Below, one piece after another: positions 16,334 through 51,800 of a stretch of DNA of 64,000 nucleotides (its first letter is position 1; each line of letters starts with the position of its first letter). The notes beneath the pieces are model-generated. The model made no database searches. It worked only from the letters and a program-made list of their open reading frames with translations, and was not told where the DNA came from. The translations under genes and the position numbers were made by a program. Source of the stretch: a virus; the IMG/VR virus record IMGVR_UViG_3300035670_000099, positions 29,612-93,611 of that record; one strand, written 5' to 3'.

Positions 16334-17273
16334 AGTTTTTGTGTAATTTTCCATTTACCACCTTATATTGCTTTAGCCAGTTATAGGCAGTAGATTGGCA
16401 AACACCTAAATAGAGTTTACACCATGCGAATGATTTGCCATTAGAAAGTGCGTTTAAGACTGTTATTTTGACATTGTCATCGTAAGAAGGCCTGCCAATT
16501 TGTAATGGATTTTCAACAAACTGACTTTGGCAACTTTTGCATAAATATTGCTGCCTATTTCCTCTTTTCCCGTTCTTGACAACATTTTTGCTTAAACAGC
16601 TAGGACAAACAACAATATCGTTGACTACATTTTTAAGTAGTTCTATACCTTCAGATTCTAGTTGTTTAATTTGGTATACTGACAAATTTAATAATGACTT
16701 AATATCTTGTATTTTATAATCTTCAATATAAATTAATCTAAGTATTTGTGCGTGCTTGCTTGGAATTTTAGCTAGTATTATCTCTAATTCATCGATAGTA
16801 GAGTTATCAAAGTAACTGATTTCAGGAAGTTCTATGTGAATTTTATCATGAGCTATCGCAGCTTCTTTGGCGGTTAATTCTGAAATAGTCAAGTCCCTAG
16901 CTGATTGTTCATAAGTAATACCTTTCTTTTTAGCATTACGCATTATTTTCTGATAAATGTCTTGGATGTTCCTAGGGATTTTAACTAATCTGTCTTTGTC
17001 CCGCAGGAACATTAACATATATCCATTTATGAAAGGAACAGCAAAGCTGGACAGCTTTTTAGATTTCTCAGGATTATATCTTTCAATAGCTTGGATTAAT
17101 CCTAGACACCCAATTTGTACTAAATCCTCTAATGGAACAGAGCAAGACTTCTGGACTTTTTGAGCAACAGAGTAGACAAGTCCTAAATTTTTTTCTACAA
17201 TCTTATTTCTTATTTTTATGTCTTTACTCTCGTAGTATTTGATTAGCAGCTGTTGGTTAACATCAAAATTCAT
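16317..17273 (-). CDS. Sigma70-family factor fused to IS1 InsA-like zinc-ribbon/HTH domain
   Basis: Numbering here includes one GTG codon before the ATG used. Residues about 22-110 are sigma region 2 (VEKNLGLVYSVAQKVQ, LEDLVQIGCLGLIQAIERYN, FLRDKDRLVKIPRNIQD). Residues about 115-145 resemble region 3 and 160-217 region 4 (ILAKIPSKHAQILRLIYIED with a following HTH). This is the layout of small SigB/SigF-type sigma factors. Residues 224-305 then match InsA of IS1: zinc cysteines C224, C227, C246, C249 (CPSC and CKSC) and a helix-turn-helix ending STAYNWLKQYK. The factor likely redirects RNA polymerase to phage late promoters, with the extra domain adding DNA contacts; that is inferred. No IS element surrounds it. 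Confidence 0.85.
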   Translation of the reverse strand: MNFDVNQQLLIKYYESKDIKIRNKIVEKNLGLVYSVAQKVQKSCSVPLEDLVQIGCLGLIQAIERYNPEKSKKLSSFAVPFINGYMLMFLRDKDRLVKIPRNIQDIYQKIMRNAKKKGITYEQSARDLTISELTAKEAAIAHDKIHIELPEISYFDNSTIDELEIILAKIPSKHAQILRLIYIEDYKIQDIKSLLNLSVYQIKQLESEGIELLKNVVNDIVVCPSCLSKNVVKNGKRGNRQQYLCKSCQSQFVENPLQIGRPSYDDNVKITVLNALSNGKSFAWCKLYLGVCQSTAYNWLKQYKVVNGKLHKNSMMDF

Positions 17274-17313
17274 CACATTAACACAAATGTTACATATTTA
17301 TGTTACTTTAAAA

Positions 17314-32915: not shown

Positions 32916-33643
32916 TTCCAAATTTATTAAGTTTAAATCCAGATTCATTTATAGAATTATATGAGATATATAAATACAGAGTGGAAGATATAAATAAAGA
33001 TGAAGCTGCACAAAATCCTAACGTGCCATCAACGATGATTGAAACAATTAGGATTGGTAGTATAGCCATGGATGAAAACACACCATGGGTTGTCTTTGAA
33101 GGCAAAACTTATTATGCAGTTGGATGTCAAGGAGAAGGATTTGATTTAATTGGACGTGGTACTATTCCTACTCCAACATTAACTGTATCTAACGTTGGTG
33201 GTATTTTGACTAAATGGCTAAAAGACAGTAGAGATCCAGCATACAGACTGGAAGGTACTCACGTCAAAAGACATGTGACTCAAAAAAGATTTTTAGATGG
33301 ACAAGTAGATGCTAATGCTGGGGTAAAAGAACTGCCAATACAAATTTATGTTATTGAACAGCTAGTAGAAGAGAACTATACTAACGCAAAATTCAGACTC
33401 GGATCTGCCTTTGACGTTGAGGGAATAACATTGCCAGCTAGAGTAATGGTGCGTAGCTGCACTTGGGTATATCGTAGTCCAGAATGCAGTTACGCTAATC
33501 CTGCAAAATTTACAATAAATAATGAGCCAACCCAAAATGCAAGTGAAGATTTCTGTGCAAAAACTATTGCAGCTTGTGAAACAAGATTTGGTGCAGGCAG
33601 TATATTACCATTTGGTGGATTCCCAGGATTAAATACTTACTAA
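32912..33643 (+). CDS. Minor tail protein, lambda gpL-like
   Basis: A 243-residue protein with the gpL C-terminal cysteine pattern: RSCTWVYRSPECSY, then DFCAKTIAACETRFG and LPFGGFPG. In lambda-type phages these cysteines can hold an iron-sulphur cluster, and the protein docks on the tail tip. The stop (TAA) overlaps the convergent RHH gene stop within CTAA. Confidence 0.85.
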   Translation: MIPNLLSLNPDSFIELYEIYKYRVEDINKDEAAQNPNVPSTMIETIRIGSIAMDENTPWVVFEGKTYYAVGCQGEGFDLIGRGTIPTPTLTVSNVGGILTKWLKDSRDPAYRLEGTHVKRHVTQKRFLDGQVDANAGVKELPIQIYVIEQLVEENYTNAKFRLGSAFDVEGITLPARVMVRSCTWVYRSPECSYANPAKFTINNEPTQNASEDFCAKTIAACETRFGAGSILPFGGFPGLNTY

Positions 33644-33828
33644 ACCTCGGATTCGTTGCGTTTTAATTTCATGTATATCTTTATCTTGTTCCGTAGTTCT
33701 AGCTCCTGTATTAATCCACTAACAACTAATCTATTTACGATTGAACTGATAGATTCTTCTGTTTCTTGATGGATTGATTGTAAAACAGCAAAAACATCAG
33801 TTGATACAGACACGGAAACTTGTTTCAT
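33640..33828 (-). CDS. Ribbon-helix-helix (CopG/Arc-like) protein
   Basis: A 62-residue protein. KQVSVSVSTDVFAVLQSI is a beta strand followed by a helix, and ISSIVNRLVVSGLIQELEL is the second helix, as in RHH repressors. The start used has GAGAGG five bases upstream; an ATG four codons earlier is possible. It faces a divergent HTH gene over a spacer holding an 18-base inverted repeat that may be its operator. RHH proteins also serve as centromere-binding proteins in plasmid partition, which fits the FtsK module downstream. Confidence 0.75.
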   Translation of the reverse strand: MKQVSVSVSTDVFAVLQSIHQETEESISSIVNRLVVSGLIQELELRNKIKIYMKLKRNESEV

Positions 33829-33858
33829 ATTACCTCTCATTGCTTACTAAATTAACTA

Positions 33859-33876
33859 TACATTATGTATAATGTA
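33859..33876. promoter_or_regulatory. 8-bp inverted repeat over divergent -10, candidate operator
   Basis: TACATTAT-GT-ATAATGTA, perfect arms. It covers a rightward TATAAT (33868-33873) and lies between the RHH and HTH genes. Binding here could repress both directions. Confidence 0.5.
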
Positions 33877-33887
33877 CATAGCAAAAA

Positions 33888-33907
33888 AGTCCGACTTTAG
33901 TCGGACT
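33888..33907. terminator. Leftward terminator or leader hairpin
   Basis: AGTCCGAC-TTTA-GTCGGACT. Read leftward it is followed by six T, a typical terminator. Read rightward it lies in the leader just before the Shine-Dalgarno AAAGGAGG of the 33924 gene. No leftward gene lies upstream of it, so insulation of the RHH promoter or a leader role is possible. Confidence 0.5.
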
Positions 33908-33923
33908 AAAGGAGGTAACATAC

Positions 33924-34205
33924 ATGGAAATTATAACTAAATTTAATCCTATCCCAGACAAATATTCCTCTTTGGATAGACTCATGTGTCCACTAGAATT
34001 TAAACAAAAGTGGAAATTAACGATAGACGAGATGTCTTGGGTGCTGCAAATTAGTCCGGATACTTTTAAGTCTTGGGCTGTACCTGAGACAAGTGCCAAA
34101 AGCAGAAAAACACCTTTAATTGCTTTTGTTGCTTGCAAAGCATTAGATACTCTTTGGGAAAAGCAAGGTATGCCCAACGTTAGAATTTTGATGAATTTGC
34201 ATTAA
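33924..34205 (+). CDS. HTH-like regulator (93 aa)
   Basis: A 93-residue protein after a perfect AAAGGAGG. The centre (WKLTIDEMSWVLQISPDTFK) has the spacing of a helix-turn-helix with recognition helix SPDTFKSWA. It opens the rightward FtsK module and is divergent from the RHH gene. Probably a transcription regulator of the module; no closer family recognised. Confidence 0.55.
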   Translation: MEIITKFNPIPDKYSSLDRLMCPLEFKQKWKLTIDEMSWVLQISPDTFKSWAVPETSAKSRKTPLIAFVACKALDTLWEKQGMPNVRILMNLH

Positions 34206-34227
34206 AAACTAATTTAATTACGAAACT

Positions 34228-34264
34228 GTGTACTTTGTCCGCATTATTTGTGTACAAAGTACAC
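34228..34264. promoter_or_regulatory. 11-bp inverted repeat GTGTACTTTGT / ACAAAGTACAC
   Basis: Perfect 11-base arms with a 15-base spacer, between the 93-aa and 124-aa genes. A third ATACTTTG follows at about 34277. It may be a terminator for the upstream gene or an operator made of repeated TACTTTG elements. Confidence 0.4.
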
Positions 34265-34303
34265 TTGCTTTATATATACTTTGTTTTTATAGTTTAAGCA
34301 TAG

Positions 34304-34349
34304 TTCCAGAAACATTCCAGAAATAGTTCGGAAGTAAGACGGAAGTAAG
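34304..34349 (+). repeat. Four helically phased 11-12-bp repeats before the 124-aa gene
   Basis: TTCCAGAAA (34304), TTCCAGAAA (34315), TTCGGAAGT (34327) and CGGAAGTAAG (34340) recur every 11-12 bases, about one DNA turn. The second CGGAAGTAAG merges with the AAGGAGG Shine-Dalgarno. Such arrays commonly bind multimers of small regulators or partition proteins. Confidence 0.5.
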
Positions 34350-34357
34350 GAGGAAAA

Positions 34358-34732
34358 ATGGATACAGACATTTTGTATCCTGTTAAACACAAAAGACAGT
34401 ATAGGAGGAAAACTCAGTCATCGGTGGTGTTATCTGATTGCACCAGAGAAGCAATTGCACTTGAGCTGGAAGTATCTACTAGAACTGTTCAAGAGTTAAT
34501 CAGAATTGCATCAACGTATATTGATTTGTTTAATGAGTATACAGATGACAATTACAGATTAAATGGTTTGCCAATAGATTCAAAACAACAAGTTGAAGTG
34601 CTAAGGCAAATCAGACAAGTTAGGCAAAAGTACAGACACGTCAAAGACAAATCCTTTATCAAGAAGGAGTATCAAAAAATCAACGAAAAGGTTAAGGAGG
34701 AACAAAATGGCAGTCAAGAAAGTAACAGTTAA
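34358..34732 (+). CDS. HTH protein with coiled-coil tail (124 aa)
   Basis: A 124-residue very basic protein. TREAIALELEVSTRTVQELI is a clear helix-turn-helix; residues about 65-124 are charged helix (VEVLRQIRQVRQKYRHVKDK). AAGGAGG lies four bases before the ATG. The phased repeats immediately upstream are a natural target. The 3' end overlaps the next gene by 26 bases. Confidence 0.65.
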   Translation: MDTDILYPVKHKRQYRRKTQSSVVLSDCTREAIALELEVSTRTVQELIRIASTYIDLFNEYTDDNYRLNGLPIDSKQQVEVLRQIRQVRQKYRHVKDKSFIKKEYQKINEKVKEEQNGSQESNS

Positions 34733-35309
34733 AGATGTTGCAGCCTCAATTGGCTGGACAGTCAAAGAGTTGGTAACAAGGCTAAATCAAGAGCCTAACA
34801 TTAATGTCGCTCCTAGCGAAGCTTTTCCGACTTTGTCAGAGGACAGCGAGTTGTGGAAGCAAATCCAAGCTGCTGCTCAAAAAAGTCAAGTTAGTCAAGA
34901 GCCAGTTAAAGAGTCTGTCGCTATTGGAGAAGGCGAGATTAGTCCATACCAAACGCCAATACAAACAGTTGACACATTAGCTGAAGCTCAGAAAGTATTA
35001 GCAGAAGAGACAACTGGCATTCAAGTAGAACAAGCTCGTATACTTGGCTCTGTTGCTGGCATTAATGAAACCATTACATATTTTACAGCACGCCAACAAG
35101 TCACTGAAGCATTGCTTAGACATCATATTGAGCAACAAACTAATCTCACAGATAGTTTAATCGGAAAAGCCCAAGAATCTTCATTTGAGCTGCACAAGCA
35201 GACAAGAAATAGCTTGTCAGGAGCCTATGAATTAAAAAAAACTCTAGAAGAGCAAAAAGCCAGACTGAAAAACATAGTGACGCAAATGACACAATCATTT
35301 GGGATGTAA
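34707..35309 (+). CDS. Coiled-coil protein with N-terminal HTH-like part; probable frameshift donor
   Basis: A 200-residue protein after AAGGAGG. The N-terminus (VKDVAASIGWTVKELVTRLN) resembles an HTH or IF2-N-like fold. Residues about 85-195 are helical coiled coil (EAQKVLAEETTGIQ, YELKKTLEEQKARLKN). The slippery run A-AAA-AAA (35234-35240) lies five bases after the last stop of the -1 frame, which then stays open through the membrane protein to 35605. A fused product of about 299 residues, with a soluble coiled coil tied to a membrane anchor, is therefore likely. Partner of the FtsK translocase is inferred. Confidence 0.6.
   Translation: MAVKKVTVKDVAASIGWTVKELVTRLNQEPNINVAPSEAFPTLSEDSELWKQIQAAAQKSQVSQEPVKESVAIGEGEISPYQTPIQTVDTLAEAQKVLAEETTGIQVEQARILGSVAGINETITYFTARQQVTEALLRHHIEQQTNLTDSLIGKAQESSFELHKQTRNSLSGAYELKKTLEEQKARLKNIVTQMTQSFGM
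35234..35240 (+). promoter_or_regulatory. Slippery heptamer A-AAA-AAA, candidate -1 frameshift site
   Basis: In the zero frame the codons are TTA-AAA-AAA-ACT. The -1 frame has its last stop at 35228-35230 and is then open to 35605. An extra base in the eight-A run of the assembly is the alternative explanation. Confidence 0.55.
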
Positions 35310-35374
35310 TTAAGCTGGTTGATGAATCGACTTTAGCGCAAATAGAGTTAGCAATATCGATTGGACAAATTGAT

Positions 35375-35605
35375 ATGCTTCAGCAAATTCTAACAAGAAG
35401 AAAGGAGTTAATTAAAATCATGATTGACACATTGTTAGGAGTATCAAGTGTAGCAGGAGTGGCGACTATAGCGAGTTATTTTGCTGTTGCCACTGCTGTA
35501 GTCAATCCAGTTGTATTAACGGCATTAGGTGCAGCTGCTTTTTTAAGCGGTGTCTATATGCAATTTTCATCATCTAATTCAATTCAAATTACCCGGAGAA
35601 AATAA
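35375..35605 (+). CDS. Small membrane protein, probably also made as frameshift fusion
   Basis: A 76-residue frame with two hydrophobic spans (VSSVAGVATIASYFAVATAV and VVLTALGAAAFLSGVYM) and a basic end. Protein-like sequence continues upstream of the first ATG in the same frame (TIIWDVIKLVDESTLAQIEL), back to the slippery site at 35234, without any ATG, GTG or TTG. The independent start at 35375 has only a weak GGA upstream. So the protein is probably expressed mainly as an extension of the 34707 product. Confidence 0.6.
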   Translation: MLQQILTRRKELIKIMIDTLLGVSSVAGVATIASYFAVATAVVNPVVLTALGAAAFLSGVYMQFSSSNSIQITRRK

Positions 35606-35606
35606 C

Positions 35607-35864
35607 ATGTTGCTTAACGGAAAAGAACAAATCACAAGTCGTGTAGTAACTCAAATTACTAATACTACGTTGGAAAATGGTGGTACTTTGCATGACAAAA
35701 TAGAAACGCATTATTCACCAATTAATTCACACGTTGATAATGCTTTTTCTGCTGCAATTGTACCTTTAGCAATTGCTCTTGGCATATCCGGAGTAATTGC
35801 AGTATCTAACTGGACAGCGCCTCAATCACAGTCAAGAACATCATCCATTTGCTCAAATCAATAG
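35607..35864 (+). CDS. Small protein with one membrane span (85 aa)
   Basis: An 85-residue protein, MLLNGKEQITSRVVTQITNT onward, with one hydrophobic span (AAIVPLAIALGISGVIAV) and a Ser/Gln-rich tail. GGAG precedes the ATG at good spacing, one base after the previous stop. Part of a run of small membrane proteins before FtsK. Confidence 0.6.
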   Translation: MLLNGKEQITSRVVTQITNTTLENGGTLHDKIETHYSPINSHVDNAFSAAIVPLAIALGISGVIAVSNWTAPQSQSRTSSICSNQ

Positions 35865-35871
35865 AGGCAAC

Positions 35872-36282
35872 ATGCTTAGCACATTGAAAGGATTTTTCTC
35901 TAACACAGGAGACAAATTAGAAAACATTCTGTATGGAGTCAATAAGCCAATTTTCCCATACGTTTACGAAGTAAGTGAGGAGGAAGTGAAGCAAATTACT
36001 GAAGACGCAACTGCAACAGAACAAATGGCTGCAAGAGTAAAAGCATATCTAAAAGCAGTGGAAAGAAAAACCAAAAGTGTTGAAGAAATGTTTAATGCAA
36101 ACAATGCTCTTGAAAAGTCAACGATGGCAACTGCTGAAAGACTACATGACAAAAACAAGATGATGTATGCCGCTCGAAAGGAATACAAAAAACAATTGCC
36201 TTTTAGCGTCAAGAGATACTTGCACCCAGCAAGGATTGTAGGCGATTCTACAGCAAACATTATCAAAGGAATTTGTCAATGA
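35872..36282 (+). CDS. Soluble helical protein of FtsK module (136 aa)
   Basis: A 136-residue, charged, helical protein (MLSTLKGFFSNTGDKLENIL; EDATATEQMAARVKAYLKAV). No membrane span. The start follows AGAGG; upstream in-frame codons lie in the previous gene. Its stop overlaps the next ATG. No family recognised. Confidence 0.6.
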   Translation: MLSTLKGFFSNTGDKLENILYGVNKPIFPYVYEVSEEEVKQITEDATATEQMAARVKAYLKAVERKTKSVEEMFNANNALEKSTMATAERLHDKNKMMYAARKEYKKQLPFSVKRYLHPARIVGDSTANIIKGICQ

Positions 36283-36536
36283 TGGAAGACGAAAGAATGA
36301 CAGATATTCAGAATTCAGCAAGGTGGATGTTAGGAGCCAATCAAATACTAATCGTCATAGCTTTTGGTGCTTTTACTGGCTATTTATCCCGCTATTATCC
36401 ACCTTCTAGTTCTGTCACGATAACAGTAATTACGTTTGCATGTATTTGTGGATTTCTGTTTCCAGCTACAAGAAAAATACTACTTTTAGTTGGAATATTT
36501 TATGGACTAGGACTTGTCCTTAGTCATTTGAATTAA
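36279..36536 (+). CDS. Small membrane protein with two to three spans (85 aa)
   Basis: An 85-residue protein (MMEDERMTDIQNSARWMLGA). Hydrophobic segments ILIVIAFGAFTGYL, VTITVITFACICGFL and ILLLVGIFYGLGLVL predict an inner-membrane protein. ATGA overlap with the upstream gene; AAGGA Shine-Dalgarno. It could form part of a membrane channel with the FtsK-like protein, or be a holin; position favours the former. Confidence 0.6.
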   Translation: MMEDERMTDIQNSARWMLGANQILIVIAFGAFTGYLSRYYPPSSSVTITVITFACICGFLFPATRKILLLVGIFYGLGLVLSHLN

Positions 36537-36571
36537 TTGTTTAGGAGATGCCAAGTGGATACCATTACTTG

Positions 36572-36596
36572 CCTCCTTATTCATTTTAAAGGGAGG
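36572..36596 (+). promoter_or_regulatory. Shine-Dalgarno-sequestering hairpin before ftsK-like gene
   Basis: CCTCC (36572-36576) is complementary to GGAGG (36592-36596), the Shine-Dalgarno of the gene at 36601, with a 15-base loop. Pairing would block ribosome entry. Confidence 0.45.
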
Positions 36597-36600
36597 TATT

Positions 36601-38433
36601 ATGTTCTTTTTTAAATCAAAAGCAAAACCTAAAGTTGTACACAAGAAATTTGAATTAAGTCCAGTTGTGTTGTACAACTTAATTGGAGTAACAATTTTAG
36701 TTTTTACACCTGCAATGATTAGCTGGAAAAATGCTAAAGAGTTGCGAGTAGCAAGTAGTGCCGTAGCAGTAATGTACTCTATGGTATTGTTAAAATATGC
36801 CCAAAACAATATTGATGAAGCTGATAGACTTGCCATAGAAAAAGAGCATTACTTTACGGCTTATGCTAATGCTTCTGGGGATGTTTATTTAAATTCAGAA
36901 CAACAAATCAAAAATGCTTTGTTGCCTCCTGCTTCTAGTCCAGAAGTAGACTTAGAAGTTCTGCATCCATTAGAAGATACACTCTTAAAATTAGGCATCA
37001 AAGCAACAATAGATGGAGAACCAATAGATTCTCCTACGTTTACTAGATTCAAGATAGTGCCTGACAAAGGAGTGCATTATCAAAAATTTAATAATTTATC
37101 AGATACCCTAAAAGTTCACATGGGGTATGATACGCCTCCACTGATTTCATGTCAAAGCAAGTATGTCTCGATTGATGTAGCAAAGACAGACTCAGAAAGA
37201 CGTTTTTGTGAATATCATGAATACTCAAACAATTTGAATTATTCTCTTGAGAAGTTCACTGTTCCTATTGGAGTTGATATCAATAACAATCTTGTTGAAG
37301 TGTCGTTATCAGATGCTAACTCCCCTCATTTATTGATTGCTGGAACTACTGGTAGTGGCAAGAGTGGTTGGTTAGTAGCTTGCATAACTAGTTTACTGGA
37401 TAGATTCCCTGCTGATAAATGCAGAGTATTTTTGATTGATCCAAAGCTAGTTGAGTTTGATATTTTTGAAAAATACAAACAAGTTGAGTTGGTAACAAAA
37501 CAAGAAGACGCTCTTACTTTGTTGCACAATTTACTTAACACAATGGAAAGTAGATATGAGCTGTTCAAAAAACATAAAGCACGGGATTTATCTCAATACA
37601 ATAGAGAAAATCCTAAGAATATTATGCCACGAGTTGTGGTGTGTTTTGATGAATACGCAACATTTATGGTAGGAGACAGCAAAGACGATTTTAACGATTG
37701 CTTATCTCAACTAGCACAGAGAGCGAGAAGTGCTGGAATACACCTTGTATTAGCTACTCAGCGTCCTGATGCGACAATTGTCACGCCTAGGATACGCTCT
37801 AACATACCTACTCGCATTGCATTAAAGACTATCCAACACCAGGATAGTGCTATAATTTTAGGAGTAGAAGATGGCACTTTAAATTCCAAGAATTTGTGTG
37901 GTAAAGGTGATTTAATTGCTAATTACAATGGCAAGCTAGAAAGACTGCAAGGATTGTATGTCAAAGATGTAGATTACACGTTATCAAATACTGAAATCAA
38001 GGAGTTAACAAATGTAGATTCACCTTGCCAAAATGACGAGATTGCCTATAGCTATGGTGAAGCACAAGATAGCGAGAAAGGTGAAGTGTATACTCACTTC
38101 TCCAAAACAGCTAAAAAGGATAGTGTACAAGCATTTGAGTCTAAAAACAAATTTGTAACTAGCTTAGTGAAGCTAAAAATCGCTGCCTTAATGTCTGGGG
38201 ATATAGACGAAACTGAGCCGTTATTTGATGATAGTTATGGGCTGTCATCAGAGCAGCAGCTTTTAGTGTTGAAGTTTTTTCTAGACAAAAACATAGGCAA
38301 AGAACGCACAATTAAAGCTCTATGGGGAACAAGTTCTGGTGGTAAAAATCATCATAAATATCAAAAATCAAGTGCTATTTATGATGACATGATATCTAAA
38401 ATAAAAGAACTTGAATACTTAACACAAGTGTAA
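36601..38433 (+). CDS. Membrane-anchored FtsK/SpoIIIE-type DNA translocase
   Basis: A 610-residue protein. Two N-terminal hydrophobic spans (about 23-41 and 50-66) precede a linker and the motor domain: Walker A AGTTGSGKS (247-255), RVFLIDPKLVEF (275-286), Walker B VVVCFDEYA (345-353) and LATQRPD (384-390). Residues about 535-605 form a helical C-terminal domain (SSEQQLLVLKFFLDKNIGKE) that may be winged-helix, like the DNA-reading gamma domain. Such motors pump double-stranded DNA; relatives serve division, plasmid transfer (TraB) or resolution. The short N-terminus is more like conjugative TraB than host FtsK. No relaxase is encoded nearby. Confidence 0.85.
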   Translation: MFFFKSKAKPKVVHKKFELSPVVLYNLIGVTILVFTPAMISWKNAKELRVASSAVAVMYSMVLLKYAQNNIDEADRLAIEKEHYFTAYANASGDVYLNSEQQIKNALLPPASSPEVDLEVLHPLEDTLLKLGIKATIDGEPIDSPTFTRFKIVPDKGVHYQKFNNLSDTLKVHMGYDTPPLISCQSKYVSIDVAKTDSERRFCEYHEYSNNLNYSLEKFTVPIGVDINNNLVEVSLSDANSPHLLIAGTTGSGKSGWLVACITSLLDRFPADKCRVFLIDPKLVEFDIFEKYKQVELVTKQEDALTLLHNLLNTMESRYELFKKHKARDLSQYNRENPKNIMPRVVVCFDEYATFMVGDSKDDFNDCLSQLAQRARSAGIHLVLATQRPDATIVTPRIRSNIPTRIALKTIQHQDSAIILGVEDGTLNSKNLCGKGDLIANYNGKLERLQGLYVKDVDYTLSNTEIKELTNVDSPCQNDEIAYSYGEAQDSEKGEVYTHFSKTAKKDSVQAFESKNKFVTSLVKLKIAALMSGDIDETEPLFDDSYGLSSEQQLLVLKFFLDKNIGKERTIKALWGTSSGGKNHHKYQKSSAIYDDMISKIKELEYLTQV

Positions 38434-38448
38434 TATTAAATATTGTGT

Positions 38449-38505
38449 TAGTTCCGTTTTACTTCTGTTGTAGTTCTGCTTTACTGCCGAAGTATTACCG
38501 GAATT
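38449..38505 (+). repeat. 22-bp direct repeats after ftsK-like gene, partly inverted copies of the upstream array
   Basis: TAGTTCCGTTTTACTTC (38449) and TAGTTCTGCTTTACTGC (38471) are 22 bases apart, two helical turns. CCGTTTTACTTCTG here pairs, with two mismatches, with the inverse of CGGAAGTAAGACGG at 34329. Related motifs thus bracket the FtsK module in opposite orientation. Confidence 0.45.
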
Positions 38506-38611
38506 TAACCAGTATTTTGGTGTTAACACATTGCCAGTACTGTAAGTAGTTGGGAACAGCAGATAACCTCAATAGTTTACTCACGTCAAAGTAAATCCAG
38601 TAAGCAAAATT

Positions 38612-39877: not shown

Positions 39878-42800
39878 CTATCTTTTAAGTATTCCACCCT
39901 GTCTTTGTTGACGTTGTATTTCTACTATTACTGCTGTTTTAATAGCATTCTGCATCGCATTTGGATCTATAGACGGTGATTTGTCACCATCTTGACTTTC
40001 AATCGTTATAGGCACATTTACAGTTGTATTTGTTGTTGGTTGATTAATATTTCCTATTCCAGGAGATGGGGGAATAACTCCACCACTTGCAAAGTTCATT
40101 ATGTTTCTTACTTTTAATTCGCTATTGCTTACGTTACCTCCCATGGCGTAATTCATTACAGATTCAATATTGTTGTTTTTAATTACTTTATCTAATCCCA
40201 TCGACTGGAACTTAGCATTGTCAGCAACACTCAACACTCTTTCTCCTGGCGTTAATACTGCTACTACTGGTGTTATTCCTCCATTTGCAGCTTTTTCTCT
40301 GACAATCGCTTCATTTAATGATTGAATTATGCCTCCACCAGCATAGTTCTTGATTACTCCTCCTTTGTATTGGCTGAATACTTCGCCTCCATCGTTGGCA
40401 CTTGGAACTTCGCCGCCGCTATTTCCTCCAAATATTCCTCCAATTGATTTGAATAGTGAATCAAGAATCCCTCCTGCTCCTACTAATGACTGCATTAATG
40501 ATTTGATAGCTATGTTAATGAGTCCGCTCAGCATGTTTCTAGCTAGGTTGTTTAAGACATCGTCTAGTTTTTCAACACCCATTATTACGTCTGTAAGCCC
40601 AGCTGATAAATCATTGATTAAACTATTTCTTATTAAATCTCTTATAGAAGCTACTACACTTTTGGCTGAATTTTCAATTTCTTTAATTTCTGCATCACGT
40701 TTTGCTTTAGCTTCTTCTTTTTTTTCTTTTTTTTGTTGATCGTCAAGATTTGGATCATTTTCTATATCTTCTTTTTCTTTTTCATATTCTTTTTCTTTTT
40801 GCTTTATTTTTATATCTCTTTCTTGAGCGTTAGCAACAAATTCGTTACCTCCTGAATTTCTGTAATTTTGTATTGTAAGTAATTTAGTTTGTATTTTTGA
40901 CTCTTCAAAACGTTTTGTTTGTTCGTAATCTAAATTTTCTTTTTGTATCTTTGCCAGTCCCTCTACTGCTCTTGTTAAACGATCTTTTTCTTCTTGTGGT
41001 AAAACAGCTGTTTGAATTTTTTCTTTTAAATCAAGTACTCTTAAATCAATATTTAATTTTTCAATAGTTTGATCTTTACCAAAAGCTTCAGCTTCAAGTA
41101 TTTTTAAATTTGTTTTATCTTTATTTGTTTGAATTTCATTTAATGTTGTTTCAATAATTGCCTGTGTATTGTTATTTTGTTTTTGTTTATCACGAATACT
41201 TTCGGCTTTTTTAACTTCTTCTGCTATCTTGTCTTGAGTTAGCCCAGAAGTACTCAAACTAACTTTGATTTTTTCTTGTAAAAATTGAATTTCAGCTTGC
41301 TGATCATTAATTTTTCGTTTTAATGCTGTAATATCATTTAAGGTAGTTAAAATTTTATCTTGTTTTTCTGGGTCTTGTTTAATTGATTCTAATTCTTTTT
41401 CTTTTTGATTTAATGAGCGTTGATAGCTTTCTAATGCTCTTTCAAGTTCCTGTTTTTGCTTTTCATCAGGAGTAACTTTTCTATTTTGTGACACATTTTG
41501 ATTAACTCGTATTCTAGCTTGATCTAATTTTTTTTGTAATTCAGGAAGTTTGCTATTAATAATATTTAACCTTTCTTGAGCTTTTGATTTTGACGATTGT
41601 AAAGCATCGTTCATTTCTTTTATTAAATTACTACCGTCATTTCTTGAAATAAGTCCTTCTTTAACTTGACCTTCTATAGTTTTTCTGTATCTTTCAAAAA
41701 TTGCATCAATTGATTTTAATGCGCTAAATAAATTTGTTTTTTCAGTAGTTAATTTTTTAACAGATTCTTTAGCAGAATCAAGATCTGATTTACTTTGTTC
41801 AATTATTGATTGTGATTCAAATGATGTATTATTATTTATGATTTTATCTAAATCTTGCGTAATTTTGTCTATTTCTGATTGCTTATTTGTAATTGAATCT
41901 TCTTGTAAAATATTATCTTTTATTTTTTTTATTTGATCTTCAAGATTCTGTCTCAATAATCTAGCATCTTCCAATTGCTGTTTTTTTCTTTCAGCGTCTA
42001 AAGCTTGTTGTTGTTGAGTAACTAAATCTTGCGAAATATTTAAAGGTTGATTTGAAACAGGTATTTTTATCGTTGAATTTGTAGATACAGATGTTAATCC
42101 TGGCATTGAACCCTGGAATCCTGTTGTTGGATTTGAATGTGAACACAAACATTTTGTTGCTGAATCTAAAATAGATATTATTTTTGTTACTAAAATTAAA
42201 AGTGGATCTCCTGTTGCTGTTGTATTTGAAACAGGTATTGCACTTGCTGTATTTGCAGGTATTGTTATTGCTGTATTTGAAACAGGTATTGCACTTGCTG
42301 TATTTGCAGGTGTTGTTATTGCTGTATTTGAAACAGGTATTGCACTTGCTGTATTTGCAGGTGTACCTGTTCCTTGCAATATTTTAACTATGTCTAAAAC
42401 AAGCTTTTTCGCTTCAATCTGAGAATTATTTAAAAATCTATTTGCATACTTTTTCTCATCTTCTGTTATTATTGCATTTAAAGGGGTTTTTGTTTTATCT
42501 GAAGGTACAGGTTTTCTTGTTTTTTGTGTTTTATTTGGAGGAGCAAAAACATCATCTAAAGATTCATCAAAAAGATAACTTAAAAAATTAAATACTTCTT
42601 TTTCTGTTATTTTTGTATCTAAAACAGGTTTTGTTTTTTGTGTTTTATTTGGAGGAGCAAAAAAATCATCTAAAGATTTATCATAAAGATAACTTAAAAA
42701 ATTAAATGCTTCTTTTTCTGTTATTAATCCTATTTTTTTCAAATTATCAATTATTGGAGGAGTAAGAGTAACAGAGTTTGTTGGAAGCACAAGTTCTTGT

Positions 42801-45800
42801 TTTGATGTTAATCCTGCTTTTTGCAATTCATTTCCTAATTTAAGAATTGATTGAGAATCGAGGCTATTTACAGAACGTAAATTTAATTTTCTTAAAGTTG
42901 GAACTATTTGTTTTGAATGCTGAGGAATCCGATTACTTTCTTGTTTATTTAAAAAATAATTTTCAAGAATATTTAATGGAGTTCCAACTACATCACCAAT
43001 TACGCCACCAATTACAGGTATTCTAGATCCAAAATTTTTAGCGTGGTCTCCAAAATTTAATTTTTCTCTTTCTTCATTTCTTTTTTTAACTGCTTCTAAA
43101 GTAAAATGCCTTTTTTCTTTTTCAGGCATGCCATAATTAGTAGTTTTTGCATTATTATATTTAGGATTATTTAAGAAATCAACTATTTGATTATAACTTG
43201 ATCTTTGTATTACATTTAAAAATATCTGTTCAACATTTGGATTTATTGGTGAACTTCTGTAATTAGAAATATTTCTAAGCCTATTATACATAGCCTCTTC
43301 TGTTTTTAGGCGCTCTTCTAAAGTCGGATTATCATCATGAGGAATTGCTTGATATCTTAATGGCTTAGATTTAGGTTTGAGAAAACCAAGTGCTATTTCG
43401 TTTTCGTTATTTTTTCTAAAATTTATGTAATCTTTAGGATTTAAACGATTTGAAGAATTAAAAGACGAAGAAGTATTACCACGTTCATATCCAATTAAAT
43501 TCAAAGAAGCTGAAGCTATTTTTACTCCTTGATTAAATCCTGTGTTATTATTAGCAATTTGAATAGAAGAAGGATTGGAAACATGACTAGGTCTTATTGA
43601 AGGTAAAATATTTCCAGGCAAATTATTATTAGGAGTGTTTTGCCTATTCGATTGAACAGAGATAGTAACTATTTTGCTAGATCCAATGTTTGATAAATAA
43701 TTTTTTATTAAAGCAAATTTATAAACACTGTCACTTAAATTTCTGTTTAAAGATAATACACCCGATCCTAATCGATTCATTGATTTTCCTGTTTTATCAA
43801 CTGATTCTTCAATATAAGATACTTGTTTATTGGTAAATTTCATCTCTTTTCTAAGTCTTTCTAATTCTTTGAATGATTCTTCAAATAATTTTTTAAAAGT
43901 AGCAGTAGATTGTTGAGCAAAATTTTTAATAGCATTTACATTTTCATTTGCTGATTTACCTAATAATTGAATAGCTTCGCTAAGTTTACGTTTATCTTCA
44001 ATGTCTTTGCGAGCATCTTCTAAAGCTTTTTGCTCTTGTTGTATTTTTTCTAAAGCTAATTCATTTATTTCAGTAATAAATTCTGAGACAACTTGTGCTA
44101 ATTGTGTTAATTCATTGTCTCCCATTCCTTTAAGTAATAATTTTAATGTTTTACCAGAGAACCTATTGTTAAGCTCTATTACTGCTTTTCTTAATTCAAA
44201 TCTTGCATCTTCAATTTGTTTTTGTACAGCTAGATTATAATCTTCTATTTGTTTTTTAGCGTCTTTAATTTTGTTTCTTAAATCTAAATTAGCTTTGCTG
44301 ATATCAACAGATGCTTTTGATCTATCAACTTTTGCTTTATTTATTTCTTTCTGTAATTCTTCTATCCTTTCTTTGTCTGACTCTCCTAGCTCAGACGAAG
44401 GTATTGAATTTAATAAATTTAAGGCTTGTGTTTTAGTTTTTATTTCATTATCAATAGCATCAAAAGTTTTATTTAGTTGATTTATTTTTAAATTCAACAA
44501 TTGAATATCAGCATCAGATTGAGATATAGTACCTTTATCTAAATTTTTGTAAATTTCTGCTTCTTTTTCATTAGATTCTATTTCAAGCTCTTGAAGATAT
44601 TCATCATAAGCTTTTGTAAATTTATTTAAATTACTAACAATTTTTGTGTATCTAGATTCAATCTCTGGTATAGCTCCTTTAGGTAAAAGATCTTTGTATT
44701 GTTTAGAAAAAGTATCAATTTTTTTTATTAACTCATCAAAAAAGCTACCAACCTTAAATCCTGGAAAAAGCTTTTCCGCTAGTTCCTTTTGTTTTATTAA
44801 AGTTTCTTTAACATTTTCTAATTCTTTGTATTTAGAACTATATCTTGATATAATAGATTGTTTTTCCTTTTCAATATTTGAATACTCTTTATCTATTCGG
44901 TCTATTTCTTTTTCATCATTTGATTCAAATGCTTTTTGTCTTTTCTCGCTTAATTCTTTTTGTTTATTTATTAATTTATTTATTTTTGTTTTATCTTGAG
45001 AAAAGTTTGAATCTTTATCTTGATTGTATTTCTTTAACTCTTTAATATTATCTTCAACTTCTTTGAAAAGATCTTTCTCAATACTATCTTTTAACTCAAG
45101 CATGTTATTTAAAAACATTTTTACTGATTCAAGAGCATCATAATCAGTATCGCGTACAATTGTTCCATACATTCCAAGTTCTTTTGCTATTTTTATTTGG
45201 TTCTTAGTATAAACTTTAGGTTTGTTTTCATCATTAGCTCCTATGTCAACTTGACGTTTAAAACTACCATATCCTTTGTCAAACCAAGTAAGGGGCTGAT
45301 AAGTAGAGCCTAAGTTTCCTCTTTCAACTTGTTCGTCATAATAGTCTTTAAGCTGCTCTGGACTCATTTTCCCTGATTTTACTAAATGAGCAGCGTAATT
45401 TATACGCTTTCTACGTTCATCTTCTACGTACGATTCTTCTTCTCCTTGAACTCCAATTACAACAAATGGATTTAATTGAAAGCCTTTACTAGGAATTGAT
45501 TGATAAGCAGAAAAGTTTGGTTTATTTCCTTTTGTTTTTTTAAGCTCATTATTAAAATCACGAAAAGCATTTGCAGCATTTTCAATACTTTTTGATATAT
45601 CATTAAATCCTTCTTTAAAAGGAACAGAAAAATCAGCTGCAGATAAAAATAAAGTACCAAAAGTAATTGCTAATGATGCTGCTCCTTTCGCTAAAGATCC
45701 AATTGAAATTTTAATTTTTTTAATAGATGTTAATCCAATTGTAATGAAAGTACTAAAAAAAGCAGATCCTAATTTTATTACAGCAGGAATTGCTTGGCTT

Positions 45801-48800
45801 AAAATAATAGATGCCATTTTAGATAAAAACTGTATTATTGTGTGAACAGCAGTTACTGTAAATATTCCTTTAAAAGCACCACCTAAAAAGCTAAATACTG
45901 GACTTATAGATTTAGCAAATTCTTTAAAAGTATTTAAAACAGGCTTTAAAGAAATACTTAAATATTCACTAATAAAACTAAAAGCATTTGTAATGATTTT
46001 AAGTGGATTTCGTCCACCAAAAAATTCATTTAATCCATTATGAAAAGCTGCACCTGAAGCTATTCCAATGATTTTAAATGTAGATGGAAAACTTGTTTGA
46101 AGAACTGCTATCACCCCTTTTAAAGAAGTAGACGCTGCTAAAGAAGCAGTGATTCCTGAAAAAATAGCAGGAGCGATTAATAAAGCAATTCCAGCAATTG
46201 CTATACTAAGTATAATAGCTGCGGAAGTGACTCCTTTTATAGCATTTGTAAGAATAGAGAAGCTGTCAGCAATATTAATAATTGCTTTAGGTATTATTCC
46301 AATCAATAATTCAAAAGAATCAATAATATGTAGTACTGCTTCAGTTCCAATGTTTTGCAGTTTTGTCAATGTTATTGCCAACCCACTTGCATTTTGCGCT
46401 GAGCCTTCGTATCTAGCTCTTAATATTTTGCCAACATTAGGTAATATATCAGCAGAAAGAATAGCACCTTGGCTTGTTAAATCAATTAACTCAGGAATTG
46501 TTTTGCCTATAGCCTGAGCAAAAATTTCCATCGCTGGAGGGAATTTTTCTCCTAATTGCTGTCTTAATTCTTCCATAGATAACTTACCTTTCGCCAATAT
46601 TTGAGTATAAGCAAGTAATATGTAAGTTACGTCTTTTCCTGTGATACCTAATGCATTTATGGATGAAGCAATTCCTTTATATAAATCTTGAATACCTTGC
46701 CCTTCTAGTTTTGTATTTTGCGCAGCTGCAAGTAATTGTCCATAAGCTTCTAATCCATCTGATATCGATACGTTGTATTGCTTAGATGCGTTAATTGCAA
46801 AATCAATTTCTTTTCCGCTTTTTGCTTCTCCTACAATAGAATTAATTTTTCTCAACGAAGGCTCTAATTTTATTATTTCTTCTCCAAGAGCAATTATTTT
46901 ATCAGTCAAGATAGACATAAAATCAGAAATATTGTAAAAAACATTAGTTAATGGGGAGAAAGTATCATCAATAGTATTTCCTAATTCTATTAAAGGAGAA
47001 ATTGCATTATGAAATTCTTCTCCAGCAATTTTAGCTAATCCATTAATTTCAGTAAGTTTGTTAATACCTTCAGATAATTTTTCTGGATCTGGTAAACTAG
47101 CTTCTTTTATGTCATCTACTATCTCTGAATGAACACTTGCATCAGGAGCTGAAATAGCTTGAAATTCTGTATAATCTTCAGTCGTTACTAAATTTATTTT
47201 AGTTTCTTCGCTTTCAATAGGATCTGTATACTGCTCTATTTCAACTTGTCCACCTTCTAATAAGATTTTAAAATTCCTAAGCTTTATTTCTTTTTCTTCT
47301 TCTGATAAATCAGGATGCTCAATAATTGCTTTAATTTCTTTTCTTATATTTTGCTGTGTATATTGACTAAATTCTGCTTTAATATCAAATTTTTGTTCTT
47401 TTTTAATTTTTTTATCTAATTCTTTTTCTAATTTATTTTTTTGATTTTTTAATTCTTCAATTTTCTTTTTCGCTTTATTTTCTTCTTTTGTTATTTCATT
47501 GTTCAATGCTTCACTTCTCGCTCTTAACGATTGAATCATTTCTGCACTAGCTTTTTGATCTGAGCCTTGTATAATATCTTTTTCGTAATCACTCAAATCT
47601 TTTAATTTTAATGCTGCTTCTTTTCTTTTGTCAATTAATTCTTCTTCTGTATTTTTAATTGCATTTACTTTATCTTGTATATTATCAAGTTCTTTTCCAT
47701 ATGTTTCACTTAATTTTGCAAATTTATCTATTCTTGATGCGTTTTGGTAATCTTTTTCTGCTTGCATTGCTTCTTTTTCTGCTTGTTTTATTTCTTCTTC
47801 TAATCTTGCAATTGATGCTTTATTCTCTTTTATTTGTTCTTCATATTTTTGCTTTTGCTCTTTGCCTATTTTACCTTTTTGTCTGTTTGTACGTTCATTT
47901 TGAAGACTTTTAAGTTCTGCCTGTGTTTGTTTAATCTCTTTGTCGTCGCGAGTTTTTTGTTCTTTTGTATATCCTCTACGACGTTCGTCAAAATCAAGGC
48001 GATTCATTTTTTCAACCAATTTATCTCTTTTTTCCTGTATTTCTTTTCTTTCTTCAATGTCTTCAGGTAATGTACGTCCAAACTCTTCTTCTAGTATTCG
48101 GTCTTCATCCTCAAGTTTCTTAATTTCATTATTAATAAATTCATCAAAATTTTTATTTTTTATTTTTTTATTTTCTTTTAATTCTCGAAGTTTGTTTATA
48201 AGATTTTCTATATTTTCGTCTAATTCTTTTTCTTCTTTTACTGTGAAATTTCTTTCGTTTTTTGCGTTTACTTTTTTTATTTCTTCTTCAATGTTATCAA
48301 GCTCTGCTTCTAAATTCTCTATTAATTTTATCTTTTCTTTAAGGTTTTCTATTTTAGCAGTGTCTGGATCAAAAGAAGATTCTTCAAATTCTAAAAGCTC
48401 TCTAAGCTCTGCTTTGTTTCCAGTACTTAATTCTAAATGAAGTTTTTTTTCTGTTTCTTTTCTTTCTTTCTCATATCCTTCGAGTTCTTTTTTATATCCT
48501 CTTCTTTCTTTGCTTGTTACATCTGTTTTTAAAAATTCTAATTGTTCATTTTTTCTTTTTAAATCTATTATTTTGTCTTCATTTTCTGCTTTTATAGATT
48601 CTTTTTCGTCTTTTTTTGATTCTTTTTTTCTTTCCAATGCTTCTGTATCATTAAATCTTATTTGATTTTGTTTTTTTAAAATTTCTTTATTAACTCTTTC
48701 ATTCATGCTATTAAGTTCTGCTTCTTTCTTTGCTATTTCTTTATCTAATCGTTCAAGTTCTTTTTTCTTGGATTCCTCCGCAGTAGTTTCATTTTTTTTA

Positions 48801-51800
48801 AGTGCCGTTATTTCTTTATCTAATCTCAATAATTCTTTTTTTGATTCTAATTCTTTTTGTTTTATCTGTTTATTTATTTTTTCAATTTTAGCAGTTTTAT
48901 CTTTTTCTGAAATAGATAATTGTTTTTGTTCTTCTAATTTTTGTATTTCTTTTTCAACTTCTAGTGATTTTTCCCTTATTTTTTGATTTATACTTTGAAT
49001 TCTTTCTTTTTTGTCTTCTTCATTTAATTTTTTATTTGCTGAAATTTCTCTTCTTTCTTTTTCTAAATCACTAATTGGTTGTCTTGCTATTTTTTTCTGA
49101 TTTTCAATTTCTCTATCTCTTTCTTTTTTTTTCACTTCACTAAAAACAGTAAGTCCTTCAATTCTTGCTTTTTCTTCATTAAGTTTTGATACTGCTTTTT
49201 CAGTTTCTTTTATTTTTTTATTTTTTGAAGCTTGTTTTTCTAAAACAGCAGATGATGTATCATGACTAATGCTTTCTACTCTAATTTTTTCTTCTCTTAA
49301 ACCTGTTAACTCTGATTCAAGTTCTCCTTGCTTTTCTAATCGCTTATCTTCTAATTTCTTTATTTCTTCTCTAATTTCTGCCACTTTTTCGCCTGTTTCT
49401 TTAGCTTTCTTTATAATAATAGAAGGATTAATAGTATTTAAAAAAGCTTTTCCAATAGCATGTGTAACAACCGCTAATTCTGCTACAACCGAATTAGAAT
49501 AAGAGTGAACAACATTATATCCTACATCTCTTAATTCTGTTGATGGAGAAGCTATACCAAATACTTTTTTAATAATTTTTAAAACGCCCTCAAATGCATT
49601 TTTAATAACTTGATTATCTATTGAAGCAATTTGGCTTTCAAAAGTATCTACAATATTTTTACCAATATTTTTGTATGAATCATCAATAACATAATCTATA
49701 GGATTTTGTATTAAATTTTGTTTAATTGCTTTTGGAGTCAATTGAACAGCTTCAGCAATACCAGTTCTTTCACTAGCTAGATTTCTTTTTCCATCCTTAC
49801 CAACTTTTGGGTTGACAGGCGCTGTAGTAACTTGTAGTAAATAATTTGTTCTAGCTCCTGCATCATGAATTCCTGATTTTTCTAATTCTTTAAAATTAAC
49901 TAATTTATCTTTATACATTTTTGCTAATAAATTGTTAAATTCCTTTCTTGAGTATAAAGACATTTTCTCCCTAAGTTCTTTAATGTCTACTAACAATTCA
50001 TCATTGTCTTTATATTTTTTTATTAATGTTTTAAAATAAAAATCAAAATCAGATTGAAATTGTTTATATAATTTATCTAATTCTTCTTGAGAATATATTT
50101 TTTCAAATCTTTTAAGATTTGAAGTAATAGCTGGAATCCAGCTATCTTTACCGTCAAACAAAGCTGTGCCTTTTCCAGCAACAACTATTTCTGGAAGTGG
50201 TTTCATATGAATTGGTTTATGTCCTTCTGATCTTTTTATTTTTGCTGAAAGTTGAAGAAGTATTTTCATCAAACCAATCGAGTTATGATCTTGCTGGCTA
50301 GTTATTACAGAATTACGAGGAGCGTAACCTTTTTTAGCAAAATTAGGATGATTATGTGCCACAGAATAAAATATTTTGTCATTAGATTTTCTTGCAGCTT
50401 CATAAATTTTTAAAAAAAGTTTGTCACTATCAAATTGAACGTACTTTTCACTCCGTTCTTTAGCAATATTAAATTCTTCTATAATTTGTCCTCTAGAATT
50501 CATAATAATACCTATTACATCTTCTAATTTTTCATTTCTAATGTCATCTATTTTTTTACTATTGTAAGGATTTTGTATTTTATCTAAATTTTGTCTAGGA
50601 TTTATAAAATTTAATTTTCCAGCTTTAGAATAATCATCTAATTCTCTTTTCTGATTTTCATCTGTTAATAATTCTTCTCTTAAATGTTTATAAATTTCAA
50701 TATAATCTTCTAACTTTCTAAATTCTCCTAATTCAGGCTTTGCAATATTTAAATCAAATAAATGATCTGGTATATCTTTAATTTCTCCAAATTGTCTAAA
50801 TAAACCCTGAATAATGTTATCAATAATAAGCCGTCCGGCTTTAAATCCATTTTTAATCGAGTCAAAAAATGTTTTTGTAATATTTACTGCTACTTCTATT
50901 ATTTTTTTAGCTGGAGAAGCTATACCAAATACATCTTTAATACCTTGTAAAACTTTCTTAAATTCATCTTTAATAGATTCATCGTCTAATAAAGCAATTT
51001 GGCTTTCAAAAGTATCTACAATATTTTTACCAACATTTTTGTATGAATCATCAATTCCTTCAATAGCAGAAGCTTTAGATTGATTAATTTGCCTACTTTG
51101 CTGCGGAGTTGAAGAGTAAGCAGTCTTATAAGATTCTGATGTAGATTCAAGTTTGTTTTTGACATCAAGTACATTATCTTTTATGTATTTAGATAAAGTT
51201 TTTAGCAATGCAAAAACTTCTGCATCAATATTTAATGATTGAATTTTAGGTAAAATTTCTTTTATTTGTTGTATAAAAGTATCATTTACTTCTTTGTATA
51301 AATTAGTAATTTTTATAAAGTCATCTTGTAAAAACTGTTGATTAGGCGTGCTAGGTATATCAGCATCTTGCATTGATGCGACATTTGCTGTATTTTTAAT
51401 ATAATTATAAATAAAATCTAATCCTTGAGAAGATATTGCTTTATTAGCATCAGAGACATTATTTATTAATTCTTGTTTAAATGTGTCTATAAAACTAGTA
51501 TCAATTTTTTTACCACTATTAGCAATTTTATTAGTAATTGTTTTTTCAATTGCATTTAGCGCTTTATTAATGGATTCATTAATAGTAGCAGGATCAACGC
51601 CTCCTGTTTTTTGTATTGATTCAATGATTTCTTGTTGAATTTTTGTTAACTTTTCTTTATATTTAGTAGCAAGATTTTCAGGTTTTGTCGGATTAATTGA
51701 TTTAGCAATATTTTTAAGATTTAAAGATTGGTTTAATATATCATCTAATCTAGTAGAAGAATTAGTAGTTGGTAGCTTTGATGCAATTTTATTAATTGAA

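Follow-up and report, generated by a model that had tools for sequence, protein, structure and literature searches.

Streptomyces plasmids such as pIJ101 and pSVH1 carry the TraB/Spd system, which serves conjugation and intramycelial spreading according to the excerpts of PMC4170104 on which we draw. Excerpts of PMC5859096 and PMC11963761 further describe the MerR-like protein BldC, which forms head-to-tail oligomers along DNA, and RdfS, a helix-turn-helix (HTH) protein of an integrative element that also binds DNA head-to-tail and is needed for excision and conjugation. Here we describe a phage locus that shares features with both. The window, i.e. the whole stretch of DNA that was analysed, comprises 64,000 nt of the 93,611-base virus record IMGVR_UViG_3300035670_000099 (positions 29,612-93,611), and its region 33640-38433 encodes regulators, small membrane proteins and an FtsK-type motor. 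Our analysis suggests, as the best explanation, that this cluster represents a module with which plasmids of filamentous (Nostocales) cyanobacteria handle DNA, here in a version carried by a phage. Judging from the sequences, the module found in this phage is of plasmid type and its motor is exchangeable; the host of the phage is probably a cyanobacterium, as are those of its relatives. A plasmid-type system carried by a phage had been proposed in a first-pass annotation of the window, and homology to the Nostocales plasmid module together with common CGGAA iteron arrays now speaks for it.

The homology is carried by the head of the operon, namely a small HTH protein with a long C-terminal helix (HTHcc), a protein with an IF2_N-like N-terminus (IF2Ncc) and a small membrane protein (s76). 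Phage-against-plasmid profile comparison gave 97.3% (1.7e-11) for HTHcc, 98.1% (9.8e-14) for IF2Ncc and 72.6% (3.2e-5) for s76, the weakest of the three; the alignments are shallow and these percentages are rough. In the controls, unrelated pairs gave 0.1% and 4.3%, and reversed sequences 0.4% and 0.1% (the latter for HTH1, the regulator ahead of HTHcc).

Gene content and conservation among phages

The open reading frames (ORFs) of the cluster lie where the first-pass annotation had put them. Nine genes recur in the same order and strand pattern in two isolated Cylindrospermopsis phages, Cr-LKS4 (OQ625504) and CrV RM-2018a (MH636380), referred to below as the Cr phages. The features of the region are as follows.

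33640..33840, minus strand: ribbon-helix-helix (RHH, CopG-like) regulator, 66 aa; Pfam RHH_7 at E 0.002, under the curated cut-off; 35% identity and same place in Cr-LKS4/CrV
33924..34205, plus strand: HTH1, Cro/CI-like regulator, 93 aa; 36% identity over 59 residues to CrV gp046 'Cro/C1-type'
34228..34264: inverted repeat GTGTACTTTGT/ACAAAGTACAC, 16-nt arms, 88% complementary; possible operator between HTH1 and HTHcc
34304..34351, plus strand: iteron array 1, phased 11-bp units with core C(G/A)GAA, just 5' of HTHcc; four cores at exact 11-bp spacing
34358..34732, plus strand: HTHcc, predicted MerR-like HTH plus long C-terminal helix, 124 aa; candidate iteron-binding protein (plasmid HTHcc profile match, AF2 model)
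34707..35309, plus strand: IF2Ncc, IF2_N-like N-terminus plus long, helical- or coiled-coil-looking C-terminal part, 200 aa; candidate adaptor (weak Pfam IF2_N, plasmid profile match)
35375..35605, plus strand: s76, small hydrophobic membrane protein; profile match to the plasmid small membrane protein
35607..35864, plus strand: s85, small membrane protein by hydropathy; homologue in the Cr phages only, by place and 23% identity
35872..36282, plus strand: cc136, probably helical/coiled-coil, 136 aa; 31% identity in Cr phages
36282..36536, plus strand: tm87, small membrane protein by hydropathy; 42% identity in Cr phages; ORF opens at TTG 36273
36601..38433, plus strand: FtsK-type motor, 610 aa, with N-terminal membrane segment and helical C-terminal domain (Pfam, PHROG, PDB, hydropathy, model)
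38446..38511, minus strand: iteron array 2, core C(A/G)G(A/C)A, inverted, directly 3' of the FtsK stop; four minus-strand cores at exact 11-bp spacing

The cluster had been called a single rightward one, which holds from HTH1 through HTHcc, IF2Ncc, s76, s85, cc136 and tm87 to FtsK; the RHH gene lies on the minus strand (33640-33840) and diverges from the operon. The small membrane proteins claimed at first are supported by segments that hydropathy predicts in s76, s85 and tm87. What had been read as a fusion of coiled coil and membrane protein consists of two ORFs, 34707-35309 and 35375-35605. Upstream, the reading frame of s76 extends over the IF2Ncc end to 35231 with no ATG, GTG or TTG start, and the s76 N-terminus is longer in the Cylindrospermopsis phages than in the window, so that a non-standard start or a frameshift fusion is possible. 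A dCTP deaminase gene follows FtsK in the window, and a lambda-like tail gene L precedes the module in both annotated relatives, Cr-LKS4 and CrV.

The motor matches Pfam FtsK_SpoIIIE at 8e-33 (114 bits, cut-off 24) and FtsK in the PDB at 6e-41, and it matches the FtsK PHROG at 2e-70 as against just 4e-9 for a terminase PHROG; at least one N-terminal membrane segment is predicted at residues 22-40. These matches confirm the membrane-anchored FtsK-type motor of the first-pass annotation, and by sequence the protein is closest to true FtsK double-stranded DNA motors. FtsK_gamma is not among its Pfam hits. A packaging or head role, for which no support was found and which had been doubted from the start, was rejected on the same PHROG comparison.

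The module is held by 13 of the 14 phage loci compared, three of which (L028-L030) are repeat views of the same contigs, leaving 10 distinct records. All nine genes are present in seven of these 10, and the other three (L026, L027 and L021) end at a contig edge; L008-L010, beyond the 10, also have the nine genes. The fourteenth locus, L018, is without the module and has a 25% FtsK match only. Near-identical members of the window type occur among viral contigs (L008-L012, L021), and the Cr branch includes contigs close to Cr-LKS4 (L015, L017) and two more lineages at 74-96% to it (L016; L013/L014/L026/L027). Between window type and Cr branch, FtsK is 41-43%, HTHcc 32-35% and IF2Ncc 19-22% identical, and the module proteins as a whole span 19-43%, with s85 resting on its place and 23% identity. 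The phage module thus appears by sequence to form two deep branches, and since the genes are kept together between them, the nine-gene set is probably a functional unit.

Plasmid relatives, phased arrays and motors

The starting clue was a weak match of the HTHcc of contig L016 on a Nostoc plasmid (E 0.9), adjoining an HTH1-like gene. A tblastn search of plasmids with the window HTH1 (E<=1) returned 33 records, 32 from Nostoc and one from Tolypothrix, with a best E of 5e-8; these records differ from the plasmids that bear IF2Ncc. We examined eight of the 11 plasmid records with an IF2Ncc homologue: Nostoc C052, HK-01, C057 p057_J, N. edaphicum pNe_5, Aulosira AP018309, Calothrix NIES-22, Tolypothrix PCC 7601 and Fischerella NIES-4106. 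A gene in the HTHcc place precedes IF2Ncc in all eight, and small genes and then a large gene follow, as seen in the protein sequences of six loci and in the gene tables of pNe_5 and Tolypothrix. The HTHcc of Fischerella was assigned by place and by eye and is not among the matches of the plasmid HTHcc search (20 plasmid records), and the Aulosira locus has no full motor gene in the stretch examined.

The phage HTH1 gave a profile match of 99.1% to the HTH1 of other Nostoc plasmids, and of 87.1% (4e-6) to the gene preceding HTHcc-IF2Ncc on the Calothrix (L045) and p057_J (L048) plasmids; in HK-01 and Aulosira (L042, L044) a small gene that looks different by eye takes this place. In the reverse direction, a search of 50,697 phage records with the Calothrix IF2Ncc (E<=1) found CrV (3e-4) and Cr-LKS4 (1e-4) and no others, in both cases at the IF2Ncc gene. 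A search for the plasmid IF2Ncc in viral contigs gave 58 pattern matches and no relative, and a scan of genome contigs with the FtsK alignment gave one distant, uninformative locus.

The second line of evidence comes from phased repeats. We counted the bases that match the base 11 positions on, in 44-position windows over the whole 93.6-kb record, and the two strongest places were window positions 34304 (32/44) and 38445 (29/44), directly before HTHcc and directly after FtsK. Each reaches p=0.002, the floor of 500 dinucleotide shuffles, and the early observation that the module is bracketed by phased repeats stands. The units share the core C(A/G)G(A/C)A, a pattern picked after the arrays had been inspected, and array 2 is inverted relative to array 1, with both pointing inwards. 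No further chain of at least three such cores at exact 11-bp steps was found elsewhere in the record. Among the direct-repeat families listed from a general repeat finder (20 of 26), none corresponds to these degenerate arrays, and the lag analysis was needed to see them. The third-best lag-11 place (27/44), at genome position 9113 (L002:9113-9167), has TTCCGG and CGGAAG motifs and lies inside a ParB_N-domain gene. In Cr-type phages the upstream array is weaker (p 0.008-0.018 in L005, L006, L015 and L017), and the stretch AGACGG(A/C)AGTA 5' of HTHcc is common to all these phage lineages.

On the plasmids C052, p057_J and pNe_5, six to eight CGGAA iterons in 11-bp steps stand at the HTHcc 5' end. 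At this end the array takes first place among the lag-11 windows of its locus in L041, L044, L045, L048, L049 and L170, and among the lag-10 windows in L042, making seven of the eight plasmid loci, among which L044 holds just two CGGAA cores and falls outside a three-core scan; Fischerella has no array at its HTHcc 5' end. In a shuffle test on a shorter stretch L044 (p 0.26), L045 (0.07) and L042 (0.07 at lag 11) were not significant, because their arrays overlap the annotated start of the ORF or repeat every 10 bp. An inverted array (TTCCG) directly follows the motor gene in C052, p057_J and pNe_5, and weaker ones of 2-3 units lie ~200 bp on in Calothrix and 1.8 kb on, past one more small gene, in Tolypothrix. 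Inverted downstream arrays were thus found in five of the eight loci, three of them clear, and none was seen after the motor region in HK-01, Aulosira or Fischerella. The convergent bracket is a feature of the plasmid modules too.

The plasmid motors form at least three groups: L048/L171 with L170/L173 at 34%, L034/L174 at 41%, and L047. A Pfam search with the L048 motor hit neither FtsK nor any other P-loop family. Since the motors differ between phage and plasmids, the arrays appear to go with HTHcc, the conserved DNA-binding protein. The first-pass annotation had expected the C-terminal domain of FtsK to bind the repeats, which has become less likely, as plasmid arrays accompany HTHcc where the motor is not FtsK. 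Array binding by FtsK itself is also without support because the model of this domain has four helices, no strand and no clear match (top Z 2.3, VIA).

On the small Nostoc plasmids L034, L035 and L037 we observed an operon of ~5 unannotated genes ending in a P-loop protein, beside HTH1 genes; L035 also carries an RHH gene and L034 has two motor copies. No comparable array was found on these three plasmids, and their operon genes were not shown to be homologous to the phage middle genes.

On other Nostoc plasmids, e.g. pNsp_b, an HTH1-HTHcc pair opens an operon that goes on with a membrane protein of pilin size, a second, small one and an ATPase. The ATPase of pNsp_b (L036), the only one of these plasmids tested, matches TraC (8.5e-15) and VirB4 (4.6e-12); the pilin-sized protein gave no family hit and is VirB2-like by position. 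Because the pair heads a TraC/VirB4-ATPase operon, the same regulators seem also to serve a DNA-transfer-type operon. The phage module proteins scanned gave no VirB4 hit. Relatives of the p057_J motor occur on 53 plasmid records, all in genera that we take to be Nostocales, and 44 of the 53 have a relaxase and are typed as mobilizable or conjugative. A yardstick replication protein occurs on 208 plasmid records, including unicellular genera, and 91 of these have a relaxase (Fisher p 2e-7, with related plasmids counted as independent). The range of HTH1 is slightly wider (42 plasmid records, including one from Oscillatoria). On pNPM6, 3 kb separate the motor gene from mobC and a relaxase gene.

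Possible functions of the module

The AF2 model of HTHcc (mean pLDDT 69) has two HTH-like helices, a short helix with isolated strand residues, and two further helices, the last of them long. The MerR-family proteins CueR, CadR, RacA and MtaN fill many of its top structural rows at Z about 5, with CueR at Z 5.2 (68 aligned, 3.2 A) and RacA at Z 5.2 (66 aligned, 3.2 A); Foldseek gave nothing with E<2 among the matches listed. A MerR-like fold is plausible from this model. By analogy with BldC and RdfS, a side-by-side coat of HTHcc on iterons one helical turn apart would be the simplest reading of the arrays.

From sequences and models together, HTHcc most likely coats the arrays and tethers the DNA to a membrane pump. 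HTH1, and probably RHH too, would time the expression of the module. HTHcc would polymerise side by side on the phased iterons at both module ends, and its coat may repress the operon and mark the DNA of the element for the membrane motor. Tethering of the HTHcc-DNA complex to that motor could fall to IF2Ncc, cc136 and the small membrane proteins, and FtsK would then pump the double-stranded DNA of the element through the membrane or a septal pore. The phage would gain by moving genomes between neighbouring cells of a filament, and the plasmid by transfer or spread.

Our preference, a tentative one, is that the module serves DNA transfer or spread, above all cell-to-cell passage along filaments. 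Two specific versions are doubtful on present grounds. We speculate that the phage may send its double-stranded DNA genome via an iteron-nucleated pump through the filament septa, infecting neighbours without leaving the filament; jointly with this, and with equally modest expectation, the plasmid versions could be a cyanobacterial counterpart of the Streptomyces TraB/Spd spreading. The ParA-like family PF13614 and the recombinase families PF00589 and PF00239 had no match in any of three phage records, which favours a use outside lysogeny. Cr-LKS phages were isolated by plaque assay, as an excerpt of PMC10811720 states. Given this isolation and the lack of recombinase, ParA-like and relaxase matches, a lysogenic plasmid state of the phages is unproven. 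A use in lytic growth, with genomes moved to neighbouring cells of the filament, is attractive by analogy with TraB/Spd spreading in the mycelium of Streptomyces.

Several observations weigh against a shared module that moves DNA. Plasmid relatives were not shown for cc136 and tm87 in the middle of the operon. Phage and plasmid motors have no kinship beyond a weak resemblance of their P-loops: the phage FtsKs match the eight plasmid motors at best at E 1e-4 by blastp (L034, P-loop region) and the five motors of IF2Ncc loci plus L047 at E 0.2 or worse. The upstream array is not significant in L016 (0.064), L013 and L014 (0.31, 0.34), the downstream array was found in the window type only and not in Cr-type phages, and the lag-11 analysis gave no significant array in the HTH1-HTHcc-VirB4-type loci (L031, L036, L038-L040, L046). 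Nor are 11-bp CGGAA arrays confined to contigs with module genes; the pattern marks at least 120 stretches of viral contigs, with no module relative at E<=0.01 in the loci fetched, and the core alone is therefore no marker of the system. The MerR matches of HTHcc are weak and tied with unrelated rows (1y10 at Z 5.5), on a model of middling confidence. The relaxase family PF03432 is absent from all three phage records, with other relaxase families not searched, so that any transfer by the phage would be relaxase-free. The mobility comparison used a set that we chose ourselves and treated related plasmids as independent. Four unrelated viral contigs (L060, L068, L083, L116) have long near-perfect 11-bp tandem CGGAA arrays and no module genes.

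The first-pass annotation had offered plasmid maintenance beside TraB-like transfer; of its proposal, the plasmid-type system in a phage is supported, by homology and arrays. For maintenance, the arrays would be centromeres and HTHcc their binder, the coiled-coil and membrane proteins would anchor the complex, and the motor would clear or move DNA at the septum, so that both daughters keep copies. We regard this partition or anchoring role as an unlikely reading that is nonetheless the chief alternative and deserves serious weight, since iterons of 10-11 bp 5' of a small DNA-binding gene and again 3' of the operon resemble centromeres. In par2 of pB171, sites reportedly lie on both sides of the operon in a similar way. 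The weak structural rows include RacA, which anchors the chromosome and is MerR-like, and PF13614 is found neither in the phages nor in the 20.7-kb Fischerella plasmid. It is, however, already present on six of the seven IF2Ncc plasmids tested, even if two systems per plasmid are possible; no filament-forming NTPase was recognised in the module, and the unproven lysogenic state of the plaque-forming, recombinase-negative phages also argues against partition. Less probable still is that FtsK and its partners act inside the infected cell, blocking division, moving or resolving replicated DNA or feeding packaging, with the arrays as mere operators. PHROGs places FtsK-like phage proteins in the category 'moron, auxiliary metabolic gene and host takeover', and the upstream array abuts the HTHcc ribosome-binding site, as would an autoregulatory operator; yet plasmids hold the same head genes and arrays without a lytic cycle, and an operator has no need of a second, inverted array 3' of the motor.

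An anti-phage or superinfection-exclusion system seems very improbable to us. The motor region of FtsK does match PADLOC SspH (7.6e-49) and mad8 (1.1e-23), but it is the shared motor domain alone that matches; of the five other module proteins scanned (without RHH, s76 and s85), three gave no hit and IF2Ncc and cc136 weak ones (E 0.002-0.009). The first-pass annotation had named two outcomes that would speak against its own proposal, namely that the genes do not co-occur elsewhere or that FtsK is a recent stray host copy. We found fixed-order co-occurrence in other phages, and the window FtsK is nearest to the FtsKs of related phages (40-43% identity, 426 bits). FtsK genes are common on plasmids, the top copy among the matches listed (best 40 of 996 records) reaching 237 bits and 39.8% over 52% of the protein. 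We give almost no credence to a chance cluster around a recently captured host FtsK, as the nine-gene synteny persists between window type and other phages at 19-43% identity and the FtsKs of related phages are the best matches found; a stray host FtsK was rejected on these grounds, with host chromosomes not searched.

Elsewhere in the window we noted, on the minus strand, a phage protein with sigma-70 regions 2 and 4 plus an InsA-like zinc ribbon (16317-17276), an ORF of 6,235 aa that is probably the tape measure protein by its length and its place in the Cr phages (39878-58585), and a thymidylate synthase domain fused to a pterin-binding DUF4346 domain (58630-60189). On the plus strand lie a class 3 lipase gene (60658-61335) and a ParB_N-domain protein directly followed by a C5 cytosine methyltransferase (62374-63869).

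Comparison with known systems

Neither the class of the motor nor the notion of a TraB-like pump is new. What appears undescribed is the array-HTHcc-IF2Ncc module, along with the fact that phages and plasmids share it; among the papers listed from an open-licence library, none describes this module in its title or abstract start, supplements not covered. Through the module a clade of cyanophages is connected with a family of plasmid operons that lack annotation, and the nameless HTHcc protein gains a predicted DNA-binding site. If it moves DNA, it would be a cell-to-cell DNA spread system for multicellular cyanobacteria and a filament route for a virus; if it serves partition or anchoring, it would represent an unfamiliar type of such system, one whose P-loop motor can be exchanged. 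With its arrays and the HTHcc protein, the module lends itself to in vitro tests under either reading.

As far as the excerpts on TraB/Spd go, that system and the module both combine an FtsK-type double-stranded DNA motor with a varied set of small proteins, some of them membrane proteins, as well as with repressors, repeats in the DNA of the element and a multicellular filamentous host. There is no sequence kinship beyond the motor (NCBIfam TraB NF041214 gives 60 bits against a cut-off of 800). The module has 11-bp arrays at both ends, whereas the excerpts give 8-bp TRS in clt for TraB/Spd, and, unlike TraB/Spd, it pairs its arrays with a separate HTH protein and is carried by a phage. Chromosomal FtsK/SpoIIIE shares the motor domain seen in the PDB match; the phage FtsK differs in its short N-terminus, the lack of FtsK_gamma among its Pfam hits, its operon of small membrane proteins and the iteron arrays. 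The par2 locus of pB171 reportedly has ParA and ParB proteins, in contrast to the phages with no PF13614.

BldC and RdfS are small MerR-like HTH proteins, as HTHcc is predicted to be, with head-to-tail oligomers on DNA described for the former two in the excerpts. HTHcc has an extra long C-terminal helix, and its homology to them is not established; the BldC sites in whiI are 9-bp repeats according to these excerpts, compared with the 11-bp arrays here. The nearest relatives are the Nostocales plasmid modules (pNe_5, p057_J, pC052_C etc.), whose genes are annotated 'hypothetical protein'. They differ from the phage in having other P-loop motors of at least three groups, other middle genes and, on some plasmids, a relaxase. 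They have the same HTHcc-IF2Ncc-s76 order and CGGAA arrays and, in the two loci tested, a relative of HTH1 ahead of HTHcc, as in the phage.

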